Positions 10,399-45,396 of a stretch of 64,000 nt of DNA are shown in pieces. How positions within the stretch are numbered: the first letter of the stretch is position 1; every line of letters begins with the position of its first letter. Origin of the DNA: Candidatus Auribacterota bacterium (GTDB lineage Bacteria; Auribacterota; JAFGBW01); the NCBI GenBank assembly GCA_016932965.1, contig JAFGBW010000039.1:1-64000 (forward strand), written 5' to 3'. The notes under the pieces were generated by a model. The model saw nothing but the letters and a program-made list of their open reading frames with translations. It had not been told where the DNA came from and made no database searches. The position numbers and the translations under genes are program-made.

Positions 10399-11676
10399 AT
10401 GGATGTTTTTAAAATACAAGGCGGAGTACCTCTGAAAGGAGAAGTCACTGTTTCAGGTTCTAAGAATGCCGTGCTGCCTCTCATGTGCGCCGCTCTCATG
10501 GGAGATTCTCCTTCCATCATAAGAAATGTCCCCAGACTCAGAGACGTGTTCAGCATGATTGAAATCCTGAATTCACTTGGTGCTGAAGCAGAATTTATTG
10601 AGGATTCTGTGTTGAGGATTGATCCATATTCTGTCAATAAATATGAAGCACCATATGAGCAGGTCAAAAAAATGCGGGCTTCCATTTGTGTTTTAGGTCC
10701 TTTGTTTGGAAAATTCGGGGAAGCTCGGGTTTCCATGCCCGGAGGGTGTGTGATAGGCCCCAGGCCAGTGGATATCCATTTAAAGGGATTAAAAGCTTTG
10801 GGTGCGGAGATTACCATAGAACACGGGTATATCGTGGCCAAGGGAAAACCTGTAGGGGGAGAAATTTTTCTGGGAGGAAGATTCGGGTCTTCGGTTACAG
10901 CCACTGCCAATATTTTAATGGCCGCTGTATTGGCAAAAGGGAGAACGATCATCGAGTCTGCTGCCATGGAACCGGAATTGGGGGATTTGGCTCAATTTTT
11001 AAATAGGATGGGGGCAAAAATAACCGGACTCCATTCGCACGTTCTTCAGATAGAGGGCGTCTCCCGTCTTCACGGGATTGAATATTCGGTCATTGCTGAC
11101 CGCATCGAAGCAGGAACTTTCATGCTCAGTGCTGCCATCACGCAAGGGGATGTTTTTGTCCGGAATGCGCAGGTTCGGCATTTGAGAGCTTTGATGGATA
11201 AACTGATTTTAAGCGGAATCCAGGTAAACGAGGAAAAAGACGGGATCCGTGTGGTATCGGAATTAAGACCCAAATCTGCCGAAATCATCACTTTTTCTTT
11301 TCCGGGTTTCCCGACTGATCTCCAGGCCCAGATGATGGCTCTCATGTCTGTGGCTGATGGAATATCCGTGATTACGGAAAAAATTTATCCGGAAAGGTTC
11401 ATGCATATTTCCGAACTCAACCGCATGGGAGCGGAAATTTCTTTGGAAGGCTCAACGGCTGTCATCAAAGGAGTTTCAACCCTCAGCGGGGCTCCTGTCA
11501 TGGCGTCTGATTTGCGGGCTTCTGCCGGACTGGTTCTTGGGGCACTTGTCGCAAAAGGGGAAAGCCTGATCTATCGGGTTTATCATATCGACCGCGGATA
11601 TGAGCAGATAGAAAAAAAATTGTCTGATTTGGGAGCGGTCATTATAAGAGAAAAAGAGGAAGAGCCATCAGTTTAG
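10399..11676 (+). CDS. murA: UDP-N-acetylglucosamine 1-carboxyvinyltransferase
   Basis: MurA transfers enolpyruvate from PEP to UDP-GlcNAc, the first committed step of peptidoglycan synthesis in the cytoplasm. The protein starts MDVFKIQGG and shows SGSKNAVLPLMCAAL, the catalytic loop PGGCVIGPRPVDIHLKGL with Cys117, the site fosfomycin modifies, and FPTDLQAQMMAL. I set the start at ATG 10399 because AGAAGGA lies 8 nt upstream and the family begins here. The frame is open back to 10309, but those 30 residues do not belong to the family. The last 9 bp overlap the convergent treZ gene. Confidence 0.96.
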   Translation: MDVFKIQGGVPLKGEVTVSGSKNAVLPLMCAALMGDSPSIIRNVPRLRDVFSMIEILNSLGAEAEFIEDSVLRIDPYSVNKYEAPYEQVKKMRASICVLGPLFGKFGEARVSMPGGCVIGPRPVDIHLKGLKALGAEITIEHGYIVAKGKPVGGEIFLGGRFGSSVTATANILMAAVLAKGRTIIESAAMEPELGDLAQFLNRMGAKITGLHSHVLQIEGVSRLHGIEYSVIADRIEAGTFMLSAAITQGDVFVRNAQVRHLRALMDKLILSGIQVNEEKDGIRVVSELRPKSAEIITFSFPGFPTDLQAQMMALMSVADGISVITEKIYPERFMHISELNRMGAEISLEGSTAVIKGVSTLSGAPVMASDLRASAGLVLGALVAKGESLIYRVYHIDRGYEQIEKKLSDLGAVIIREKEEEPSV

Positions 11677-13488
11677 CTGGAATATAATCAATCCAAATCC
11701 TTTTAGTTCTATTTCGTATTGATTTGATTTTTTCTTGCGGAGAATAGACCCTTTTCCAAGCCATTTTTCTTCATATGAATCGAGTCGTTTTATCCATTTA
11801 CCGATAGGGAATTTCATGGTGCATTTATCCTGACGGTCGGAAAAATGAGCCACGATAAAAATTTGGCTTTTATTTTTAGAGCGGTGGATGGCCATGATGC
11901 TTTTATCTTCCATGAAATGCACGGATAAGGTTTTCTTGCTAAAATCAGACAAAACAGGAGTGACCCTGCGGAGCCGGATCAATTCCCTGTACCAGTTCAG
12001 TAAAATGCTGTGCGGTTTTTTCGTTCTTTTCTCCCACTGGAGAATACATTGTTCGAAAGTCCAAGTATCATAGGGATCAGGCGGGTCTTTTTTCCAATGG
12101 AAGGCTTCGAATTCTTTTTTTCTGCCATTGCGAACAGCCTCAATGAGATTTGGATCCTGATGACTGATGAAATATAAAAAGGGAGCGTTTTCCCCATATT
12201 CCTCTCCCATAAAGATAAGGGGTATAAAAGGGGAAAGAAGGGTCATGCCTGCGGCCAGTTTTAATCCGTCAAAATCAACTAGATTTGACAGCCGTTCACC
12301 GTTCATACGGTTCCCTGTCTGGTCATGGTTTTGCGAGAAAACGACAAAACGGCTGCCTGAAATTCCTGCAGCTGAGTTGCCGTGATTGCGTTTTCTAAAT
12401 GGAGAATACTGCCCGGAATAGACGTAATTATCAGTCAGACATTTTTCAAGTTGTGTCAGCTTGCCGAAATCCCCGTAGTAACCTGTTTTTTCATTTGTGA
12501 GAAGAGTATGGATGCAGTGATGAAAATCATCGTTCCATTGGCCGTGTATTCCGTATCCGTTGTTTTTTTGGTCCGTTACGAGGATTGCATTGTTCAGATC
12601 ACTTTCTGCAATCAGATAAAACGGACGGCCCTGATCCTTGGAAAATTGGTCGGTTTTATCAGCCATTTCCCGGAGAATATGCTTTGCGCTGAAATCGTAG
12701 ATGCCATGTACGGCATCCAGTCTCAATGCGTCGATATGAAAATATTTAAACCAGTACAGGACGTTGAAAATAAAATAATCCCTTACTTCCCGGCTGTATT
12801 CCCCGTCAAAGTTAATGGCCCAACCCCAGGGCGTTTTATACCGGTCGGTGAAATAGGGAGCGAAATCCCAGATGGTATTTCCTTCAGGCCCCAGGTGGTT
12901 GTAAACGACATCCAGAACCACGGCCATTTTTTTTTGATGACAGAAATTGACCAGTTTTTTTAATCCTTGGGGTCCTCCGTAAGAATTTTGAACGGCAAAA
13001 GGATAAACTCCGTCATAACCCCAGTTTCTGCTGCCCGGAAATGATGAAACCGGCATGAGTTCAATGGCATTGACTCCGAGCTCCTTCAAATCGTCAATAC
13101 GTTTGATGATGCCTTCGAAGGTTCCTTCTTTTGTGAACGTCCCGGTGTGAAGTTCGTACAGGACCATTTTTTCCAATGGAATCCCATGCCATCGGTCATC
13201 GGTCCAGTTGAAAGCGGAGTGATCGATGACTTCGGATGGGCCGTGAACGCCTTCCGGTTGAGAAAACGATAAGGGATCAGGGCGGTCTCTGTCCTTGTCG
13301 ATGTTGTAGAAATATCTCAGTCCGCTGCAAGGGAAATCGAGCTTAGTGTGCCAGTAGCCGTTCTGATCTATTTCCATTGGGATGATTTTTTCCTCAGGAA
13401 AAACGAGATGCAGATCGATCGATTTTTTTAAGGGAGCAAATACGCGAAAATGGATACAGTCATTTTTTTTGAATGCACCTGGTTCCAT
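11668..13488 (-). CDS. treZ: Malto-oligosyltrehalose trehalohydrolase (GH13)
   Basis: TreZ releases trehalose from the end of malto-oligosyltrehalose, linking glycogen-type glucans to trehalose. An N-terminal E-set domain (residues 1-95) precedes the GH13 barrel. Catalytic residues are visible: nucleophile D258 in DALRLDAVHGI, acid/base E295 in LIAESDLN, and the transition-state Asp D389 in NHDQTGNR. The 606-aa length is typical. The partner TreY is not in the window. It is one of two signs of alpha-glucan metabolism here, the other being the dikinase at 40301. The mscS gene lies 4 bp upstream, so the two may be co-transcribed. Confidence 0.9.
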   Translation of the reverse strand: MEPGAFKKNDCIHFRVFAPLKKSIDLHLVFPEEKIIPMEIDQNGYWHTKLDFPCSGLRYFYNIDKDRDRPDPLSFSQPEGVHGPSEVIDHSAFNWTDDRWHGIPLEKMVLYELHTGTFTKEGTFEGIIKRIDDLKELGVNAIELMPVSSFPGSRNWGYDGVYPFAVQNSYGGPQGLKKLVNFCHQKKMAVVLDVVYNHLGPEGNTIWDFAPYFTDRYKTPWGWAINFDGEYSREVRDYFIFNVLYWFKYFHIDALRLDAVHGIYDFSAKHILREMADKTDQFSKDQGRPFYLIAESDLNNAILVTDQKNNGYGIHGQWNDDFHHCIHTLLTNEKTGYYGDFGKLTQLEKCLTDNYVYSGQYSPFRKRNHGNSAAGISGSRFVVFSQNHDQTGNRMNGERLSNLVDFDGLKLAAGMTLLSPFIPLIFMGEEYGENAPFLYFISHQDPNLIEAVRNGRKKEFEAFHWKKDPPDPYDTWTFEQCILQWEKRTKKPHSILLNWYRELIRLRRVTPVLSDFSKKTLSVHFMEDKSIMAIHRSKNKSQIFIVAHFSDRQDKCTMKFPIGKWIKRLDSYEEKWLGKGSILRKKKSNQYEIELKGFGLIIFQLN

Positions 13489-35791: not shown

Positions 35792-36823
35792 ATGATCATA
35801 GGTTTGACAGGCCGTAACGGTTCAGGAAAAAGTACGGTGGCTGAATTTTTGATTCATCGGGGTTTTCAATATTATTCATTATCGGATATCATCAGGGAAA
35901 TCCTTTCAAAAGAAGGAAAGGAATTTTCCCGGGAGAATCTGATTGAAACCGGTAACAGTCTTCGTTCCACCATGGGGGCGGCCGTTCTTGCGGAGAAGAC
36001 GGTTGAAAAACTGATGCCGGATCGAAATTATGTCATTGATTCCATCCGGAATCCGTCAGAAGTGGAGCGGCTGAGAAAGGTAAAAGGTTTTAAACTCATC
36101 AGGGTGGAAGCTCCCACCCGGGTACGGTTTGAACGCTGTAAATCACGCAACCGAGAGAAGGCGGATCAAGATCTGGACTCTTTCAAAAAGCTCGAGAAGA
36201 AGGAGCTGAAAAGTCCTGATCCTGTTTCCCAGCAGCTGGAGAAGACCGGAAAAATGGCGGATTATATCCTGAGAAACAGCGGTTCGCTGGAGACTCTTCA
36301 TGAGCAGGTAATCGAAATCTTGAAAGAGGTGACAAAAAAAATTTTCAGGCCGGGCTGGGACGAGTATTTCATGAATATCGCGAGAGTGGTGGCCCAGCGT
36401 TCCAATTGTGTGAAAAGGCATGTGGCTGCGGTCATCGTTCGTGATAACCGGATCATATCTACGGGCTACAACGGCACTCCCAGAGGGATCAAAAACTGCA
36501 ATGAGGGAGGATGTCCCCGGTGCAACAGTTTCGGGGTATCGGGGGAAAATCTGGGAGAATGCCTCTGTTCCCATGCGGAGGAAAATGCCATCACACAGGC
36601 AGCTTATCATGGGGTGTCCATCAGGGATGCAACATTATATACTACCTTTTCACCCTGTCTCATATGCACTAAAATGATCATCAATTCCGGTATTCGGGAA
36701 GTGGTCTATGACTCCCGTTATTCCTTGAATGCCCTGGAGCTTCAGCTTTTGAAAGAAGCGGGGATATCCGTCAGAGCGCTCAGAGAGCATCGGGATTTCC
36801 CCGATCCGTCTGCCGGCAGATGA
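35792..36823 (+). CDS. P-loop nucleotide kinase domain fused to dCMP deaminase
   Basis: Residues 1-180 are a P-loop kinase-like domain with Walker A GLTGRNGSGKST, similar to dephospho-CoA kinase/UPF0200-type NMP kinases (VIDSIRNPSEVERLRKVKGF). Residues 190-335 are a zinc deaminase domain: CSHAEENAI with catalytic HAE and SPCLICTK with the two zinc cysteines. The deaminase half probably turns dCMP into dUMP for thymidylate synthesis. The order resembles yeast Dcd1 and the larger anti-phage AvcD proteins. The setting here is housekeeping and the protein is smaller than AvcD, so I favour a metabolic role. The phosphohexomutase gene starts 3 bp downstream. Confidence 0.85.
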   Translation: MIIGLTGRNGSGKSTVAEFLIHRGFQYYSLSDIIREILSKEGKEFSRENLIETGNSLRSTMGAAVLAEKTVEKLMPDRNYVIDSIRNPSEVERLRKVKGFKLIRVEAPTRVRFERCKSRNREKADQDLDSFKKLEKKELKSPDPVSQQLEKTGKMADYILRNSGSLETLHEQVIEILKEVTKKIFRPGWDEYFMNIARVVAQRSNCVKRHVAAVIVRDNRIISTGYNGTPRGIKNCNEGGCPRCNSFGVSGENLGECLCSHAEENAITQAAYHGVSIRDATLYTTFSPCLICTKMIINSGIREVVYDSRYSLNALELQLLKEAGISVRALREHRDFPDPSAGR

Positions 36824-36826
36824 ACG

Positions 36827-38872
36827 ATGATGAATCCTGATTCTTTTGTTTCATTGATTGAAAAAGGGGAAATCTTCATACAGGATGGTTTCCTGCAGGA
36901 ATTTCTTTCGTTGACCAGGGAACATCAGGTCTTATTTTTAAGGGAATTGATTCGTATTTCGGAACGAGACATCATCCCGGGCAGTTTCAGGACCTACGAT
37001 TTGAGGATTGAAGCAGCCCGTCTTCCCAATCATGTCGTTTTTTATCTGGGGTTAAAAGCAGGGCCGATATTTAGAGAGATGACTCTGGGTCCGGACGGAA
37101 GATCGCTCATGATCGGAGTAGGCAGAGCGTTTGAAAAGGCCAGGCCTGGAAGTCATCGGATTCAACGCTGCTATATGAACGCATTGGCCCTGACCGGAGC
37201 CCGGGTCGTGGACCTGGGGGTCACAACCACCCCGGATATTTATTTCGGACTCGCGTACCTGCTTCATCAGGGGCTCCACGTGGCGGTCAACGTGTCGGCC
37301 AGCCATAATCCGAAAAAAGACACCGGACTGAAACATTGTATCCGGGACAGGGAAGGGTTCATTTACTCCATTTCCTCTGATCAGATGTCCCGGCTCAAAA
37401 ATCATGTTCTGCCCGGGAAAAAAGAAAAAATACAGAGTGATGCCTTTCTTTTAGACACGGATTTTCATTCGCTGGAAGTTTTTTCCGTTGATCATCAGAT
37501 GCTTCCTGATGAAAATACCCTGAGCCGGTTTCATCATGCTTTCATTGTCGCCTTCGGACTCCTGGGGAAAAAAGCCATGAATGAAATGACCGTCCGTTAT
37601 CAGGGTGATTTTTACCGGGTTCTTTCTTCACTGATTCCCCCGGAAAAACCGGATCAGTTGATCCCCGGATTGTTGAAATGGTTTGAAAAGCCGTCCGGGG
37701 AAATTCGGAAATGGCTGGAGTTGTCTCCGGATGTTTCTTTTCCCGGTGCCTGCGGGGAGAAGCCGTTGAAGGACATGGTTGTGGTTTTAGATCACGGCAG
37801 GGGGACGGCTTTCAGAACCATGGAAATTTATTCTGTGCTGGGCGCCCATGTCATCTGCGTGGATGAGGAAAGGGGGTATAATCCGTTGGAGTCGGGAAAC
37901 CAGATGCACTGGAGAAAAGCGGTTCTGAAAGCTGCCGGAGATTTTCCCGGCAGGGAAGTCATCGGCCTGGCCCATGATGAAGATGGAGACCGTCTCGCGG
38001 TCATGCGTTCTGACGGGATCAACGTGGAAGGAGACCGGCTGCTCGTCATTTCCTGCAGGCAGATGGAACCCTCGGAAAAAAAACCGATTGTGATCACAGA
38101 AGTCAAATCGAGACCCGAGACAAGGAAGGCCCTGGAGGATTCCGGCGTCGTTCCTGTGATTGCACCGACAGGGTTCGCCTTCATCAAAGAGACGGCCATT
38201 ATACTGGAGAAGAAATTCAGGGAATTCCATGCCTGTTCGGAAAGCCCGGCGATCCTGAGACTTCACGGAAAGGAAATCAACCTGACAACAAACCTGCCTG
38301 TGCAGATGTGGGCGGAACTCAGCGGGCATTTCGGATTGAGCCAGGGATTGTCCTGGTTTTTTGATGATGCAACCCTCATGGCTGTGGATCTGCTTTTGGG
38401 TCTTGAAAAAAAAATTCAATCCGGAACCAGGCCCGGACGGGCGCTCATTTCTCTGGATGAAAGTTTTCCAAGGCATCCGAGTTCAGGTGAATTGAATATA
38501 TTTCTCCGGACAACAGATCCGGAGTATGTTCCGACTTCCGAAGAAAAAGAGGCGTTTGTAGCCTTGTTTGCAGAACTTTTTTCCGCTGATCCGGCAGTGG
38601 ATCATCTTGATCGTACGGATGGGGTTCAGATTTTTTTTAAAGACAGTCAGGGGGAATACGGCGGATGGATTCTGATTAGAAAATCCAACAATGAGGACAA
38701 GCTGGTTGTGGTGTCGTCAGCCCCCACAAAAGAACAACTGCATCATGTGGAACAATGCTTTCTGGAAAAAGCGCGTGCTCTTTCTCTTTCTCCTATTTCC
38801 GGGCTTGTGCTGACCCAAGAAGAAGAACAGGGAACAACCCGGAAAGCGGAACCGTATTTTTTGAATCGCTAA
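36827..38872 (+). CDS. Enlarged phosphohexomutase (phosphomannomutase/phosphoglucomutase family)
   Basis: Members move phosphate between C1 and C6 of hexose phosphates through a phosphoserine. The active serine motif NVSASHNPKK lies at about residue 157 and the metal loop DEDGDRLAV at about residue 384. The spacing of ~225 residues is about 90 more than in typical enzymes, and there is an N-terminal extension of roughly 55 residues. The total is 681 aa against about 450 normally. It follows the kinase-deaminase gene by 3 bp, so they are co-transcribed. It could supply mannose-1-phosphate to ManC or glucose-1-phosphate for glucan synthesis. Confidence 0.8.
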   Translation: MMNPDSFVSLIEKGEIFIQDGFLQEFLSLTREHQVLFLRELIRISERDIIPGSFRTYDLRIEAARLPNHVVFYLGLKAGPIFREMTLGPDGRSLMIGVGRAFEKARPGSHRIQRCYMNALALTGARVVDLGVTTTPDIYFGLAYLLHQGLHVAVNVSASHNPKKDTGLKHCIRDREGFIYSISSDQMSRLKNHVLPGKKEKIQSDAFLLDTDFHSLEVFSVDHQMLPDENTLSRFHHAFIVAFGLLGKKAMNEMTVRYQGDFYRVLSSLIPPEKPDQLIPGLLKWFEKPSGEIRKWLELSPDVSFPGACGEKPLKDMVVVLDHGRGTAFRTMEIYSVLGAHVICVDEERGYNPLESGNQMHWRKAVLKAAGDFPGREVIGLAHDEDGDRLAVMRSDGINVEGDRLLVISCRQMEPSEKKPIVITEVKSRPETRKALEDSGVVPVIAPTGFAFIKETAIILEKKFREFHACSESPAILRLHGKEINLTTNLPVQMWAELSGHFGLSQGLSWFFDDATLMAVDLLLGLEKKIQSGTRPGRALISLDESFPRHPSSGELNIFLRTTDPEYVPTSEEKEAFVALFAELFSADPAVDHLDRTDGVQIFFKDSQGEYGGWILIRKSNNEDKLVVVSSAPTKEQLHHVEQCFLEKARALSLSPISGLVLTQEEEQGTTRKAEPYFLNR

Positions 38873-39220: not shown

Positions 39221-39274
39221 CTATTTCTAACATAATGAAATGAGTTTTTTGCAATAAGAGATTTGGAGGAAACA

Positions 39275-40024
39275 ATGACAAGGATCATGACAATTGGCAG
39301 TCGGGCAATCCGTGAAAGGGGACAATATTTTCATAATGATGAAAATGAATTATCCAGGCCGGTCGCGCAATCAGCAGGCTCTCAACAAGACTCAGTGACA
39401 GGCGGCGGTGAGTCCATTGCTGAAAAAAAATCGTTTAGTCATCAGGAATTGATGGCCAAACAGGCTGAAGTAAGAAAAGAACTCATTAAGACCATGTTCA
39501 GGAAATATCAGGAATACCGGACCCTGCAGAAAGTGGCTTCTGATTATGGGTACACCCGTGAGCGTATCCGTCAGTATTTTGCCATAGGAAATAAACTGGG
39601 GATCATTGATTACAAGCCTTTCAACCGGCAGAACTTTCAGAGAATAAAAAATGAACTGACCAAGGATCGCCTGATCAAATATTTGAATGAAATGGGGACA
39701 ATCCGCCGTATTTCCGAGGAATTGAATGTGGCAGTCAGTCATGTGAATCGCCTGATCAAATTATATAAATTGAATCTGTCCCAATTCAGGAGGAATTACC
39801 TCAAAACCGAAATATGCAAACAGTATTACACCATGGTGGAACAGCTGGGAGGCAAGCACCCATCCACTTACGATCTCTTGCTCATTAAAAACGGCCGGAA
39901 TCTCTGGGCAAAAATTTCAAGGAATTGGGGAACCGTAAAAAAATTCCGGGAAGAGCAGCATATCCAGCTGGCAAGAAAATCAAGAAGAAGAAGAAAGAAC
40001 AAGAATCTTCCTCCGGCTCAATGA
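39275..40024 (+). CDS. Sigma region 4-like helix-turn-helix protein
   Basis: The function is unknown. The 249-aa basic protein has a helix-turn-helix segment, TLQKVASDYGYTRERIRQYF, that strongly resembles sigma-70 region 4.2 (the TRERIRQ signature). A second HTH-like stretch follows, GTIRRISEELNVAVSHVNRL, then a C-terminal domain (EQLGGKHPSTYDLLLIKNG) and a very basic tail RKSRRRRKNKN. No regions 2 or 3 are present, so it is not a full sigma factor. The start is ATG 39275, with GGAGGA just upstream; a TTG at 39263 would place the ribosome site inside the gene. It is flanked by its own promoter and terminator. Confidence 0.68.
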   Translation: MTRIMTIGSRAIRERGQYFHNDENELSRPVAQSAGSQQDSVTGGGESIAEKKSFSHQELMAKQAEVRKELIKTMFRKYQEYRTLQKVASDYGYTRERIRQYFAIGNKLGIIDYKPFNRQNFQRIKNELTKDRLIKYLNEMGTIRRISEELNVAVSHVNRLIKLYKLNLSQFRRNYLKTEICKQYYTMVEQLGGKHPSTYDLLLIKNGRNLWAKISRNWGTVKKFREEQHIQLARKSRRRRKNKNLPPAQ

Positions 40025-40093: not shown

Positions 40094-40131
40094 GCCCTCT
40101 TTATCCCCTAGGTGATAAAGAGGGCTTTTTT
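40094..40131 (+). terminator. Rho-independent terminator of the HTH gene
   Basis: A perfect 12-bp stem, GCCCTCTTTATC (40094-40105) with GATAAAGAGGGC (40114-40125), encloses an 8-nt loop and is followed by TTTTTTATG. It ends transcription of the HTH gene about 70 bp after its stop, so the glucan dikinase gene must use its own promoter. Confidence 0.92.
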
Positions 40132-40230: not shown

Positions 40231-40259
40231 TTGACAAAGTAGATATTTACAAGTATTAT
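40231..40259 (+). promoter_or_regulatory. Near-consensus promoter of the glucan dikinase operon
   Basis: TTGACA (40231-40236) and TATTAT (40254-40259) are 17 bp apart, 41 bp before the ATG of the dikinase gene. The -35 box is exact and the -10 box has one mismatch. It lies between the terminator at 40094 and the operon, so it is well placed. Confidence 0.72.
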
Positions 40260-40300
40260 TAATATGCTTATGTTTTGAATCTATTGTCAGAGAAAATTAT

Positions 40301-43300
40301 ATGATAGGTCACAAGAATTTTTTTATTTGCATGATTGCCTGGTTTTTATCGACCGGATTTTTATGCCAACCGGTTCAATGTTTTTCGCAATCTGTGGATT
40401 CTTCTTTTCTGGCTCCTTCGCATTCAGCCCAAGACCTGACCCCCATCATGGTATTAGCCGGAAAAATGCAGGGAAATCAGCCTGTTATCTGGGATGTTTC
40501 TGCAACAGGAGTGAATAAAAAAGTAATCATTGTTGTTAAGAGCAGAGAGAGAGTGCATGTTCACTGGGGTAAAAGCCGCTACGGGAATTGGGAAATTCCC
40601 CCGGAAGCCATTTGGCCGGATCACACAACAAAGATGGATGATAAGGCGGTGCAAACAGCCTTACAGCCTGTTTCGGATAATATCCGGGTTTTTTCAGTCA
40701 CTATTCCCAACTCCATGGAATTCAATGAACTGGAATTTGTGCTTTTCTATCCTGACCGTCCCCCTCACAATCAGTGGGTTAAAGACGGAAACAGGAATTA
40801 TAAAATTACCGTTAAGGACGATCCTGGACTGGAAGAAATGGCTGGTGAAACCAAGAGTTGGATTCACACCATGATAGAAGGTGAAAGAGGGGAGCATGGC
40901 CGGAGTCTGATGCATAGAAATAAATTTGTTTGCGAATTGCTTGGCAGATTTCCTCATTGCAAAGAATTTTTCAGCACCCTGGCAGTGTACATGAGATACA
41001 ACCGGCTTGGAGTCCTGCCGTGGCAGAGAGGTTATAATACGACGCCAAGAGAAATGACTGCGAGCGTTGACAGATTGAATGAGACTATTTCAAGATTGAT
41101 GATCACGGATTCTAAACATTATTCGATGGTCAGATTATTGATGAGTTTTTTAACCCTTGGCGGAGAAAATGGACAGCAAATCCGCGATAATATTTTGCAT
41201 ATTTTACAGAATAACGGGGTCCGGGGGACTACTTTTCTGGAACAATGGCACCAGAAATTACACAACAATGCCACCCCTGATGATATTGGAATCTGTGATG
41301 CTTATCTGGCTTTTTTAAGAAGTAATGGAGATAAAGGTACATTTTATCGGGTCTTATGGGAGGGGTATGGAATTTCCAGGGAAAAACTGGCAAGTTATGA
41401 GAGACCCATTACGGTTGAGCCTGAGTTTTACGGATATGCCAAAGATGGTTTGATCCGTGATTTTGAAGCTTATCTGGAGCTCAACAGGAAAGTCCATTCC
41501 AGGGGTGATTTATTCCGGGCAAAAGCAAATGCTGAAAAATATGATGCGCCAGGATTGAATAAGCCGCTGTGGGATTTTTTTACTTTGAAATATCAGGTGG
41601 AGACCTCACAGGTGGAGCAAGGCTGGGTTAAATTATTGGACAAGCTGGTTGAAGTGCGGAGAGAGCTGCGGAGACTCATTTTTGCGGGAGGCGACTGGTG
41701 GTATCTGAGGGATTTAGTATTTTTGGATTTAAGTCTGGAAGAATATTCCAGGACCATTTCTGACAAAATCTCAGAACAAGTTAACGACCAGGAAATCATG
41801 TGGGAAGCAGCTAGGAATTTAAGCCTTCAACTTGAAAATATTGTACTCAGTTCTGATGCAGACGATTGGGATATGCTGGAAATCAATATCATAAAAAGAG
41901 AATGGGACAAGATTCAACAAGAGCCGATTAAAGACGAACAATGGCATTTGCATTCCAAAGCTATTCTGGACCGTTTGCAGAGAGTCATTGGAGACCGTAT
42001 TCAAAAGGAGACTGAACTGCTTCAGCCCAAGGCTGAACTATTAGGAAACCAGGTCCTTGCAGAAAAAGACAAATGGGCCATTCCTCTTTTTAGCGAAGAA
42101 CTGGTCCGGGGTTCCCCTCTATTTTCTATAGCCAATATTTTGAAACCCCTGCGCAAGGCAGCCAGACAAAAAGCTCTCTTGCCTCCCTGGGATGTCATTG
42201 TGCCTGGCAGAGTTTCTGCAGAAGTGAGGAAAGCAAAATCATTGAAAGAAATTTTGGCAGGAATACAACCGGGAGACAGGATCATTGCTGTTGTCAAAGA
42301 CCTGGATGGAAGCGAAGACATTCCTCCCCAGATAGCAGGGATTATCAGCCAAAGGGAAGTGGATATCACATCGCATCTGGCTGTCAGGGCAAGGAATTTA
42401 AAAGTTCCCTTTGTTTTCATTGATTCGGAAGAAGAATTTCAGACCGTTTATCAAAATGACCGTCCTGTCAAACTTCATGTTTTTGAAGGCATGACAAAAC
42501 CCTGGCAGGTTTATACAGGGGATTTAAGCATGGTCAGTATCCCTGCCGAAATTCCTGAAATCACCATCCCTTCTGTTGATCTGACAGCAGAACCTGCCTG
42601 TCTAAAAATACAGGAATTCACAATGGATAAGGTCGGGCCAAAAGGTTCCCAGATAAAGCAATTGATGGAAGACGTGAGTGAGAAGAAAGACGTGACAATT
42701 CCTAATTCAGTTGATGTGCCGTATGGAGTTTATCAGGCAGTGCTTAAAGATAAAAACAATTTAGAAATAGCACAACAAATACAAGAGTTAATTGCAAGAG
42801 CGGACGCTGAAACTGCAAGAGATGCCGCCAAGCAGTATATTGCGGAGATAGAGAGATTGACTAAAACATTAGTGATACCTGATGAGATTTTAAAGCCTAT
42901 TTTAGATGCGATAAAACAAGAGATAGGAGAGGATAAAATTCTGATGGTGCGTTCTTCAGCTAACGGGGAGGATCTGGAAAAATACGCCGGCGCAGGTTTA
43001 TATGAATCTTATTTTAATGTTTCATTGGATAAGGTGGAGCAACATATCAAATGGGTGTGGGCTTCCAAATGGACGGAACGCGCGTACTGGAGCAGGCGCG
43101 ATATGAAAATTGACCATGACCAGATCCATGTTTCAGCGCTTATTCAGGAATGTTTTCATTTTGATTATTCCTTTGTGATTCATACGGTCAATCCGGTTAA
43201 CAATGATCCGGATGAAGTCATGATTGAGGTTGCCCAGGGGCTGGGGGAAGCCATCGTTGCCAATTATCCGGGGAGCGCCTATCGTTTCATTTATAATAAA

Positions 43301-43651
43301 AAAACACATGAAGTCAGGCGCATCGCCTTTGCCAGTAAAAGTCTGAAATGCATTATCAAAGACGGCCAACTGCAATTGGTTTCAGTTGACTACAGCGATG
43401 ATTTCCTGGCAGGACCAAAAGAGCAATGGGAGGAAGTGATAAGGTCTATCGGTGAAGCAGGATGTTTGATTGAAGAAAAAAGGGGAGGGAATGCCCAGGA
43501 TATCGAAGGAGGGTATTTTTCCAGGTATGCAGACAAGCCGGATATCCTGGGTTTGGTCCAGACGAGGGACCAGATGATTGTAGAGATTGTAACGGAGAAG
43601 CCTGTTGGACCAGCGGCGGAACCACCGGACGCAGTTTTGACTGCGGCATGA
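40301..43651 (+). CDS. Alpha-glucan water dikinase-like protein with signal peptide
   Basis: GWD phosphorylates starch-like glucans on C6, using the beta phosphate of ATP through a phosphohistidine. An apparent signal peptide (residues 1-30, IAWFLSTGFLCQPVQCFS) precedes a CBM45-like module (VHWGKSRYGNWEIPPEAIWP ... WVKDGNRNYKI, about residues 86-163). The GWD core has LEQWHQKLHNNATPDDIGIC, the phosphohistidine region DITSHLAVRARN (H692), and a C-terminal ATP-binding domain RSSANGEDLEKYAGAGLYES (from residue 884) ending QDIEGGY. At 1116 aa it is shorter than plant GWD1, consistent with one CBM45 rather than two. Export of an ATP-using enzyme is odd. The HAD phosphatase gene follows after 12 bp. 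Confidence 0.85.
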   Translation: MIGHKNFFICMIAWFLSTGFLCQPVQCFSQSVDSSFLAPSHSAQDLTPIMVLAGKMQGNQPVIWDVSATGVNKKVIIVVKSRERVHVHWGKSRYGNWEIPPEAIWPDHTTKMDDKAVQTALQPVSDNIRVFSVTIPNSMEFNELEFVLFYPDRPPHNQWVKDGNRNYKITVKDDPGLEEMAGETKSWIHTMIEGERGEHGRSLMHRNKFVCELLGRFPHCKEFFSTLAVYMRYNRLGVLPWQRGYNTTPREMTASVDRLNETISRLMITDSKHYSMVRLLMSFLTLGGENGQQIRDNILHILQNNGVRGTTFLEQWHQKLHNNATPDDIGICDAYLAFLRSNGDKGTFYRVLWEGYGISREKLASYERPITVEPEFYGYAKDGLIRDFEAYLELNRKVHSRGDLFRAKANAEKYDAPGLNKPLWDFFTLKYQVETSQVEQGWVKLLDKLVEVRRELRRLIFAGGDWWYLRDLVFLDLSLEEYSRTISDKISEQVNDQEIMWEAARNLSLQLENIVLSSDADDWDMLEINIIKREWDKIQQEPIKDEQWHLHSKAILDRLQRVIGDRIQKETELLQPKAELLGNQVLAEKDKWAIPLFSEELVRGSPLFSIANILKPLRKAARQKALLPPWDVIVPGRVSAEVRKAKSLKEILAGIQPGDRIIAVVKDLDGSEDIPPQIAGIISQREVDITSHLAVRARNLKVPFVFIDSEEEFQTVYQNDRPVKLHVFEGMTKPWQVYTGDLSMVSIPAEIPEITIPSVDLTAEPACLKIQEFTMDKVGPKGSQIKQLMEDVSEKKDVTIPNSVDVPYGVYQAVLKDKNNLEIAQQIQELIARADAETARDAAKQYIAEIERLTKTLVIPDEILKPILDAIKQEIGEDKILMVRSSANGEDLEKYAGAGLYESYFNVSLDKVEQHIKWVWASKWTERAYWSRRDMKIDHDQIHVSALIQECFHFDYSFVIHTVNPVNNDPDEVMIEVAQGLGEAIVANYPGSAYRFIYNKKTHEVRRIAFASKSLKCIIKDGQLQLVSVDYSDDFLAGPKEQWEEVIRSIGEAGCLIEEKRGGNAQDIEGGYFSRYADKPDILGLVQTRDQMIVEIVTEKPVGPAAEPPDAVLTAA

Positions 43652-43663
43652 TGAGAATGTGTC

Positions 43664-45343
43664 ATGGATAATAGCAAACCAATTCAGAAACGATTGAATC
43701 TCCCGGTTTTTCTTTTAGGAAAAGCTGGAAGAATCAGGGGTCAATCAATTTTTTTAATCCTATCCGGTTTCATCAGCAGTCTTCTTATTTTTTTCCATAC
43801 ACCGGCGTTTGCTGACCTCTGTTTATTCTGTCTTGCCCCACAAGAGCAGACTTCAAGAGAAATGGCGGTTTTTACTTCCATTTCGAAAGAGCTGAACAGG
43901 GAAGGGCAAGTGGCTTTCAGAAGCATTCAAAGACCAGGCGAGGTCGATCTGATTGCTGCGGTGAAGTCAAGTGAGCCCGTCTATCTCCACTGGGGAGTTT
44001 CCCGTTTCGGGAAATGGGAGATGCCGCCTGAAGACATCCGGCCTTTGGATTCAATACCTAATCAAAAAGGGACATCTCTTCAAACCCGGATGCAGTCTTT
44101 ATCGGGTGATATCCGGTTTGTAAAAATAACTGTGCCTGAACATGTTGATTGCAGCGAAATCGCTTTTGTTTTTTATTATCCGGAACGGGCGAAGGAGCAA
44201 CAGTGGGTTAAAGACGGAGACAAGGACTATTATCTGGCAGATATTCACACATTCCCGGAATTAATTAGCTGCAATGAACAGACAAGGACCCTGGAATTCA
44301 ACAAACATGAACTGAAAAAATGGATCATTGGATTGATTGAAAGAGGACTTCTTCCCATGCTGTTTTTTGATTTTGATGATACGTTGAATCTGGGGTATGG
44401 CGGATATATGCCTGACGAATCCATTGGGGCTTTGGATCAGCTTGTCAATGCCGGCGGGATCATTGCCATTCATTCAGGGATAGATTTATTATGGGGAAGC
44501 CAGAAAATTCTCCGTTTGACGCAATCCAGATTTCCGTTTCATTTTCTGGTCTTGAGCACGGGTAAAGATATTTTTGCCTGGAGTCATCAGCATAAGGCCT
44601 ATTTAAAACTTCCATTCTCAGGAGACAATAAGAGCGATGCTTTAATGAAACTGGCCTCTTTTTTAGGAATTCTGCCTCATCAAATGGGGTATTGCTGTGA
44701 TTTTCCCGGAAGCGGTGATAAACAGGACGGGATTGATGATCCGACATTATCTTCAAACATCGGTTTCATAGCCAATGTAAGTCCGTTTGGAAGAATGATG
44801 AAACTTCCCGCTGAATCTTCAACCAGACTGATTCAGCCTGATGATAACCCTTTGACAAGGCAGGCTAAAGGCGCCTGTAATTACATGGCTGCGGCAAGCG
44901 ATGTGTTGCGACAATATGGTCAAACACCGAATCAAGCCATCAGTGATATCAACACCAAGTTACTGGCCGCTGGTTTTAAACTGCCGGTCCTGGAACCCCG
45001 TGTGGATCAATATACTGTCTGGACCAAGGACAATCAGGTGTCAGCTATCCCTGAAGGACATGTTCTGCGTGTTGAGACTGACAAACCCGGAATGGTCTAT
45101 GCCGGAAAAGAAGGAATCAGCGGCTGGGAACGAACGTACGCTATTCCCCTAAGATTAGAAAGCGGTAAATGGATAGCTGATATTTTAGACCCTGAAGTCA
45201 ATACCTTTACTTTTATCGAGAACGATCCTCTTGATGAAAAAAAGGTCGGGTGGCTAGGAAAAAAAGGCGCAAATTATTATTTTTCCAGATACGCTGTTCC
45301 ATCCGGGACGTCTCATGGGTCCCAAGCTTCGTTTTCAGCCTGA
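43664..45343 (+). CDS. CBM45-like module + HAD-superfamily phosphatase, exported
   Basis: Residues 28-50 are a hydrophobic export or anchor segment (SIFLILSGFISSLLIFFHT) ending in AFA. Residues 95-195 are a CBM45-like module nearly parallel to that of the upstream dikinase (LHWGVSRFGKWEMPPEDIRP, WVKDGDKDYYL). Residues 230-390 are a HAD domain: motif I D236-F-D238-D-T240, motif II around IHSG, motif III K323, and motif IV D346 with G351-D352. The C-terminal part is unassigned. HAD enzymes are mostly phosphatases; with the module and the operon partner, I infer a glucan-phosphate phosphatase comparable in role to plant SEX4, but of another fold. Confidence 0.72.
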   Translation: MDNSKPIQKRLNLPVFLLGKAGRIRGQSIFLILSGFISSLLIFFHTPAFADLCLFCLAPQEQTSREMAVFTSISKELNREGQVAFRSIQRPGEVDLIAAVKSSEPVYLHWGVSRFGKWEMPPEDIRPLDSIPNQKGTSLQTRMQSLSGDIRFVKITVPEHVDCSEIAFVFYYPERAKEQQWVKDGDKDYYLADIHTFPELISCNEQTRTLEFNKHELKKWIIGLIERGLLPMLFFDFDDTLNLGYGGYMPDESIGALDQLVNAGGIIAIHSGIDLLWGSQKILRLTQSRFPFHFLVLSTGKDIFAWSHQHKAYLKLPFSGDNKSDALMKLASFLGILPHQMGYCCDFPGSGDKQDGIDDPTLSSNIGFIANVSPFGRMMKLPAESSTRLIQPDDNPLTRQAKGACNYMAAASDVLRQYGQTPNQAISDINTKLLAAGFKLPVLEPRVDQYTVWTKDNQVSAIPEGHVLRVETDKPGMVYAGKEGISGWERTYAIPLRLESGKWIADILDPEVNTFTFIENDPLDEKKVGWLGKKGANYYFSRYAVPSGTSHGSQASFSA

Positions 45344-45366
45344 AAATATCCCAAGTTTTTCTAACA

Positions 45367-45396
45367 TACGATGTTTTGTTTTGACAAAACATCGTA
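45367..45396 (+). terminator. Hairpin after the glucan cassette
   Basis: TACGATGTTTTGT (45367-45379) and ACAAAACATCGTA (45384-45396) form a perfect 13-bp stem with a TTTG loop, 23 bp after the stop of the HAD gene. There is no strong T tract, so it could be a terminator or a protein-binding palindrome for the following TPR gene. Confidence 0.5.

Follow-up and report, generated by a model that had tools for sequence, protein, structure and literature searches.

The systems closest to the locus analysed here are the plant alpha-glucan water dikinase (GWD) GWD1 (EC 2.7.9.4) and the phosphatases SEX4, LSF2 and laforin of plants and animals, which are dual-specificity phosphatases (DSPs); reversible phosphorylation of storage glucans is regarded as a eukaryotic, plastid-linked trait. 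Here we describe two adjacent genes of a Candidatus Auribacterota bacterium (GenBank assembly GCA_016932965.1, contig JAFGBW010000039.1), located in a stretch of 64,000 nucleotides that is referred to as the window: ORF1 (40301-43651), encoding a GWD-like protein of 1116 residues, and ORF2 (43664-45343), encoding a carbohydrate-binding-type module and a candidate HAD phosphatase in 559 residues. On balance we favour, if only slightly, the proposal that they form a bacterial cassette for glucan phosphorylation and dephosphorylation, in which a capless HAD enzyme takes the place of the SEX4/LSF2-type phosphatases.

Bacterial GWDs appear in a GWD tree of 2018, where they were considered possible products of lateral transfer; the accessible part of that paper states that GWD occurs only in starch accumulators and describes no phosphatase partner or operon for the bacterial proteins (PMC6260743), in contrast to the two bacterial lineages reported here, which pair GWD with different phosphatases. 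A 2009 survey judged glucan phosphatases unlikely in bacteria (PMC2714694), neither the dikinase nor a glucan phosphatase comes up in the accessible part of a 2024 review on the alpha-glucan enzymes of prokaryotes (PMC11046441), and the enzyme that phosphorylates glycogen is unknown (PMC13011383). The phrases "bacterial GWD" and "bacterial glucan phosphatase" were not found in the literature searched, which leaves out most subscription papers.

ORF1 has the domains of a plant-type dikinase

Both open reading frames are present as given in a preliminary description of the locus, separated by 12 bp, and all features of the pair and its flanking signals lie on the forward strand. ORF1 contains the motifs named there, LEQWHQKLHNNATPDDIG and DITSHLAVRARN with H692, and a C-terminal ATP-binding domain. 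Three Pfam domains are detected above their cut-offs, namely, in this order, the Ig-like, CBM45-like N-terminal module Ig_N_CWD1 (PF23166; residues 69-170, 40505-40810; E 3.6e-16, 59.9 bits against a curated cut-off of 27), the phosphohistidine domain GWD1_pHisD (PF22973; residues 630-719, 42188-42457; E 4.4e-15), in which the H692 codon occupies 42374-42376, and the ATP-grasp domain PPDK_N (residues 777-1091, 42629-43573; E 2.9e-38). Residues 182-623 (40844-42169), which include WHQKLHNNATPDD, match the solved central domain of plant GWD (9ha9/9qvi) with an E-value of 1.4e-64. This arrangement is the GWD order and the reverse of that in phosphoenolpyruvate (PEP) synthase, and H692 is invariant across all nine bacterial GWDs aligned.

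In a tree built on the ATP domain only, with the row PEPS_C143 disregarded as it was cut outside the domain, the GWDs come together in a single group to the exclusion of PPDK/PEPS-type domains, and the GWDs of the window genome cluster with the DSP-paired GWDs described below (support 0.805). The tree, the domain order and the central domain all place ORF1 on the GWD side, and we are highly confident, judging from these comparisons, that it is a genuine GWD homologous to the plant enzyme. It agrees with plant GWD1 in the four domains, their order and the conserved histidine. The two differ in that one PF23166 module is detected in ORF1 as opposed to two CBM45 in potato GWD1 (PMC6243121), and in that the plant protein has a transit peptide, whereas the bacterial one carries an export-type leader and has a neighbouring candidate phosphatase gene.

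ORF2 joins the same module to a candidate capless HAD core

The presence of a CBM45-like module on both proteins, noted previously, was borne out by HMM search, as PF23166 is also detected above its cut-off in ORF2 (residues 82-191, 43907-44236; E 5.4e-12, 46.4 bits), where it is 42% identical to the ORF1 copy over 97-99 residues. A capture of this module from the neighbouring GWD finds no support, since the module tree joins ORF1 with the second GWD of the genome (0.55) and not with ORF2. The C-terminal region of ORF2 (residues 426-559, 44939-45340) has no Pfam match and was rejected as an extra copy, not being significantly similar to the Ig module.

Residues 223-408 (44330-44887) align with a HAD core devoid of a C2 cap, motifs III and IV being placed with the cap removed from the profile. 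The candidate catalytic residues are D236-F-D238-D-T in motif I, S271 in motif II, K323 in motif III, and D346 together with GD352/D355/D358-D359 in motif IV. The earlier assignment of all four HAD motifs holds for I-III, which are intact, and the core matches a HAD profile, but motif IV is atypical and Pfam scores remain below cut-off: full-length ORF2 yields no significant Pfam HAD match, and the isolated stretch reaches E=0.0095 for Hydrolase_3 and 0.035 for HAD-IIB, both below the curated cut-offs. A 275-residue HAD-IIB protein from the cross-domain survey (L051) matches the first half of the domain (BLASTP E 1e-8, single comparison). Against a Cof/HAD-IIB profile of six proteins, L051 and five from plasmid records, the ORF2 domain scores 43, where none of 100 shuffles exceeds 22, and reaches 84% in hhalign. 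The uncut profile aligns only as far as the start of the C2 cap; once the cap columns are deleted, the hhalign alignment spans both halves with 93% probability, K323 falling on motif III and GD352 on motif IV. At the expected cap position ORF2 has only about 20 residues and so lacks the cap that follows strand S3 in the HAD-IIB (Cof) subfamily.

Based on these profile comparisons ORF2 very probably has a HAD fold, and because the cap-deleted profile aligns across both halves, it is most likely a HAD-IIB core that lost its cap. It is similar to the Cof-type/HAD-IIB sugar phosphatases YidA, S6PP and TPP in core fold profile and motifs I-III, and dissimilar in the missing C2 cap, the altered motif IV, the fused Ig module and the secreted-type leader. 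The typical substrates of capless (C0) HADs are macromolecules (PMC8069645), a preference that a glucan polymer as substrate would suit, and we consider activity on phosphoglucan marginally the better supposition for ORF2. The protein resembles SEX4, LSF2 and laforin in the proposed phosphate removal and in the combination of a carbohydrate module with a phosphatase, but those enzymes are DSPs, unrelated to HADs in fold and mechanism; no DSPc match was found in ORF2 with Pfam, so that no DSP fold of the SEX4/LSF2/laforin type or CX5R loop is seen. The previous suggestion of an independent version of the plant cycle is thus apt for the phosphatase but does not hold for the kinase, a homologue of plant GWD.

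GWD genes lie beside phosphatases in a second phylum

Among 384 genomes of the cross-domain sample, a GWD above the cut-off is present in two, the window genome and G307. The window genome encodes a further GWD (contig C219, L009:682-4023), which was absent from the preliminary description and is 56% identical to ORF1, with the histidine and the leader conserved. Of the nine genomes in the phylum of G307, four, which belong to a single family, hold seven GWDs between them, and three of these four display the order GWD, DSP, radical SAM (L041:4773-11595, L045:7424-13175 and L046:7499-13198), likewise not previously noted, with gaps of 8, 33 and 92 bp between GWD and DSP. The DSPs contain the loop CRAGIGRS, and an Asp precedes it by about 31 residues. 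Since CxAGxGR loops also occur in classical protein tyrosine phosphatases, this loop fits a glucan phosphatase without being proof of it. The second-phylum DSPs are of the SEX4/laforin class, but have N and not H before the loop Cys; the loop of LSF2 is HCSAGLGR (PMC5779698). Their N-terminal domain, which is unassigned, was compared with the Ig module and rejected as a further copy.

A GWD gene beside a phosphatase gene is hence seen again in a second phylum, where the phosphatase is of another class, and this provides the strongest support for the functional reading. The coupling of dikinase and phosphatase proposed earlier is sustained to this extent by the GWD-DSP operons, but in the genomes searched the exact GWD-HAD pair is a single case with no sign of conservation: among 44 genomes of the same phylum no other has such a pair, and ORF2, the Ig module and a complete GWD are likewise missing from the others; the cross-domain sample yielded no second pair either. 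Two scans of genome contigs and one of viral contigs returned no relatives of ORF2 or of the GWD pair, a weak negative because, for the GWD pair at least, the automatically chosen peptide patterns missed the best-conserved motifs. A viral-contig scan with nine GWDs found nothing, and tblastn against plasmids and phages gave no matches beyond the ATP domain, all of PEP-synthase type.

Another second-phylum GWD (genome G385) adjoins a GH13/debranching-type protein and an amylo-1,6-glucosidase. Short GWDs of 888-972 residues that lack the Ig module and share 60-69% identity were also observed (L040:7463-10129, L043:1097-3814 and L044:7974-10892), that of L043 next to a trehalose-6-phosphate phosphatase and a HAD-GH65 fusion. 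Within the window phylum, large to giant proteins (1488-5100 residues) match in the PPDK_N region, most with an N-terminal signal-like segment (L143:2461-10482, L144:6799-14820, L145:1074-16376, L148:241-4707 and L149:137-6871); among those scanned, L143 combines PPDK_N with HPr, the phosphohistidine and ATP domains of L148 follow a GWD-like order, and the PPDK-like L149 carries TLAPQSS near its N-terminus.

Gene arrangement and regulatory signals

The window is part of a 70-kb contig in an assembly of 3.1 Mb (300 contigs, 92.6% complete), and the base composition of ORF1 and ORF2 matches that of the rest of the window. Upstream, a good intrinsic terminator-like hairpin with a 12-bp stem and a T tract (40094-40125) closes the preceding unit and insulates the pair on this side. 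It is followed by a sigma-70-like promoter, TTGACA-17-TATTAT (40231-40259), predicted by consensus match at 11 of 12 positions, the best of 14 sites scoring at least 9/12 in the region, where about 11.5 such sites are expected by chance. Promoter and upstream terminator together argue that ORF1 and ORF2 form one unit. Downstream of ORF2, a perfect 13-bp hairpin with a weak T tail (45367-45396) folds far better than shuffled sequences (z = -5.0), but its tail, CACCTTTG, lacks a T tract and makes a poor terminator. Both elements first described as bracketing the pair, the predicted promoter and the hairpin, are present in the sequence.

Directly upstream of the cassette, ahead of the strong terminator, lies a gene for a 253-residue helix-turn-helix protein with a segment similar to sigma-70 region 4 (39263-40024). 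A divergent and unusually long phosphohexomutase (36827-38872, 681 residues, weak match to PGM/PMM domains) is encoded 1.4 kb upstream in a separate unit. A protein of P-loop kinase and dCMP-deaminase type (35792-36823) shows a resemblance, below cut-off, to anti-phage dCTP deaminase (NF041025).

N-terminal leaders that resemble signal peptides

Both proteins begin with signal-peptide-like leaders, a feature missing from the preliminary description. In ORF1 (40301-40417) residues 7-20 are hydrophobic and are followed by SSFLAPS, an arrangement that the paralogue L009:682-4023 has kept. With only about 35 nt between the predicted promoter and the ATG, this leader is probably translated. The ORF2 leader (43664-43840) is basic and then hydrophobic, with a possible AFA/D cleavage site ahead of CLAPQ. 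A hydrophobic segment followed by (F/Y/C)LAP(S/Q) opens ORF1, the second GWD, ORF2 and a GH13 amylase (C284). A basic N-terminus and a hydrophobicity of 2.1-2.4 over 12 residues would be compatible with a Sec signal peptide. A whole-genome pattern search, read in frame, yielded eight leader-type proteins, the four others being a giant ABC-domain protein, one of HATPase type, and two in which cytidylyltransferase or kinase models match weakly. Besides the two leaders in the window, the loci are L009:682-800, L077:751-3024, L139, L140:2067-3167, L141:2555-4876 and L142:3856-4929.

No comparable hydrophobic leader was found on the cytoplasmic glycogen enzymes of the genome (GlgA/GlgB/GlgX) or on the second-phylum GWDs and DSPs; the LAP motif is not enriched as DNA relative to its control. 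It is possible that the hydrophobic segment and LAP motif constitute a lineage-specific sorting signal, several carriers of which have ATP- or NTP-using domains, and the sharing of such leaders by both GWDs and ORF2 suggests export.

Discussion

Based on the domains and their order, the catalytic residues, the adjacency and the shared module, all present in the sequence, and on the recurrence of GWD-phosphatase pairs in another phylum, we propose that the cassette operates as follows. The ATP-grasp domain of ORF1 would transfer the beta-phosphate of ATP onto H692, and the phosphohistidine domain would then swing to a glucan chain gripped by the N-terminal module and the central domain, generating a C6 (or C3) glucosyl phosphate, AMP and Pi. 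ORF2 would dock on the same polymer via the same module family, and its open capless site, with D236 as nucleophile and D238 as acid/base, would strip the phosphate, which is the role of SEX4/LSF2 in plants. As to the direction of control, phosphorylation may open the polymer for genome-encoded GH13 and debranching enzymes. An alpha-glucan substrate is probably available in this bacterium, being plausible in view of a full glycogen gene set: the genome encodes the glycogen synthase GlgA (C118), the branching enzyme GlgB (C112), two GlgX-type enzymes (C88, C131) and GlgE (C201), in addition to a TreS-maltokinase (C286), a trehalose phosphatase (C70), a TreY-like protein (C288) and, in the window itself, a TreZ-like GH13 protein (11668-13488), the TreY and TreZ names being read from GH13 matches.

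Several observations weigh against this proposal. Motif IV of ORF2, plausible as it is, differs from the textbook GDxxxD, the alignment of the second half of the HAD domain is weak, being equalled by 4 of 200 shuffles, and AlphaFold without an alignment gave no usable model of ORF2 or its HAD domain (pLDDT 37-39). Neither an ORF2 homologue nor another GWD-HAD pair was found in the 44 genomes of the phylum or in the second GWD-bearing phylum, and with the HAD domain as query the sole match below E 0.001 in the cross-domain sample was one generic HAD-IIB protein. Moreover, the cycle was initially assumed to be cytoplasmic and plant-like, and export-type leaders on both proteins and on the second GWD are hard to reconcile with the use of cytoplasmic ATP. 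Either the leader does not serve export, or the system acts outside the cytoplasm where ATP is present.

The second of these options leads to the foremost alternative, an unlikely one, that the same chemistry takes place outside the cytoplasm: the GWDs, ORF2 and the GH13 amylase would be exported by their shared leader to a site supplied with ATP, for instance inside a host or prey cell, and act there on foreign starch or glycogen. The common leader, its absence from ordinary GlgA/GlgB/GlgX and from the second-phylum proteins, the ATP/NTP-type domains (ABC, HATPase, weak kinase and cytidylyltransferase matches) of its other carriers, and the same-phylum large proteins that join signal-like segments to PPDK_N domains are in agreement with export, but the leader could be a membrane anchor, and the lack of enrichment of the LAP motif as DNA also argues against it. 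The wider scenario, in which both GWDs, ORF2 as a phosphoglucan phosphatase of capless HAD type, and the GH13 amylase are exported as a complete kit that opens foreign starch in an ATP-containing compartment, and in which reversible glucan phosphorylation arose at least twice in bacteria with different phosphatases, is speculative and rather improbable.

ORF2 could also be a phosphatase for a small sugar phosphate, such as a malto-oligosaccharide or hexose phosphate released after GWD-primed breakdown, as HAD-IIB relatives include sucrose-, trehalose- and sugar-phosphatases and a divergent phosphohexomutase gene lies upstream; the absence of the C2 cap, which encloses small substrates in HAD-IIB, and the presence of a polysaccharide module render this quite unlikely. 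More doubtful is the idea that ORF2 has lost catalysis and serves as a HAD-like scaffold by which GWD is recruited to, or regulated on, the glucan: the divergent motif IV, the lack of a known homologue and the weak C-terminal alignment would be compatible with it, but D236, D238, S271 and K323 are all kept, which a dead copy would not need. Finally, the reading of ORF1 as a relative of PEP synthase/PPDK, in a pair that has no link to glucan, can be dismissed as extremely improbable, as PEP synthase models match its ATP-grasp domain only and far below their cut-offs, and ORF1 has no PEP-binding domain, the reversed domain order and the central domain of plant GWD.

In conclusion, reversible glucan phosphorylation may exist in bacteria, and the GWD-DSP-radical SAM order of the second phylum may represent a finding of its own. 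If the proposed cassette is correct, the GWD-phosphatase operons, with a HAD enzyme here and a DSP in the other phylum, would mean that the full cycle exists in bacteria. They would then also bear on the origin of plant GWD, and would supply structural studies and starch engineering with compact enzymes from bacteria.

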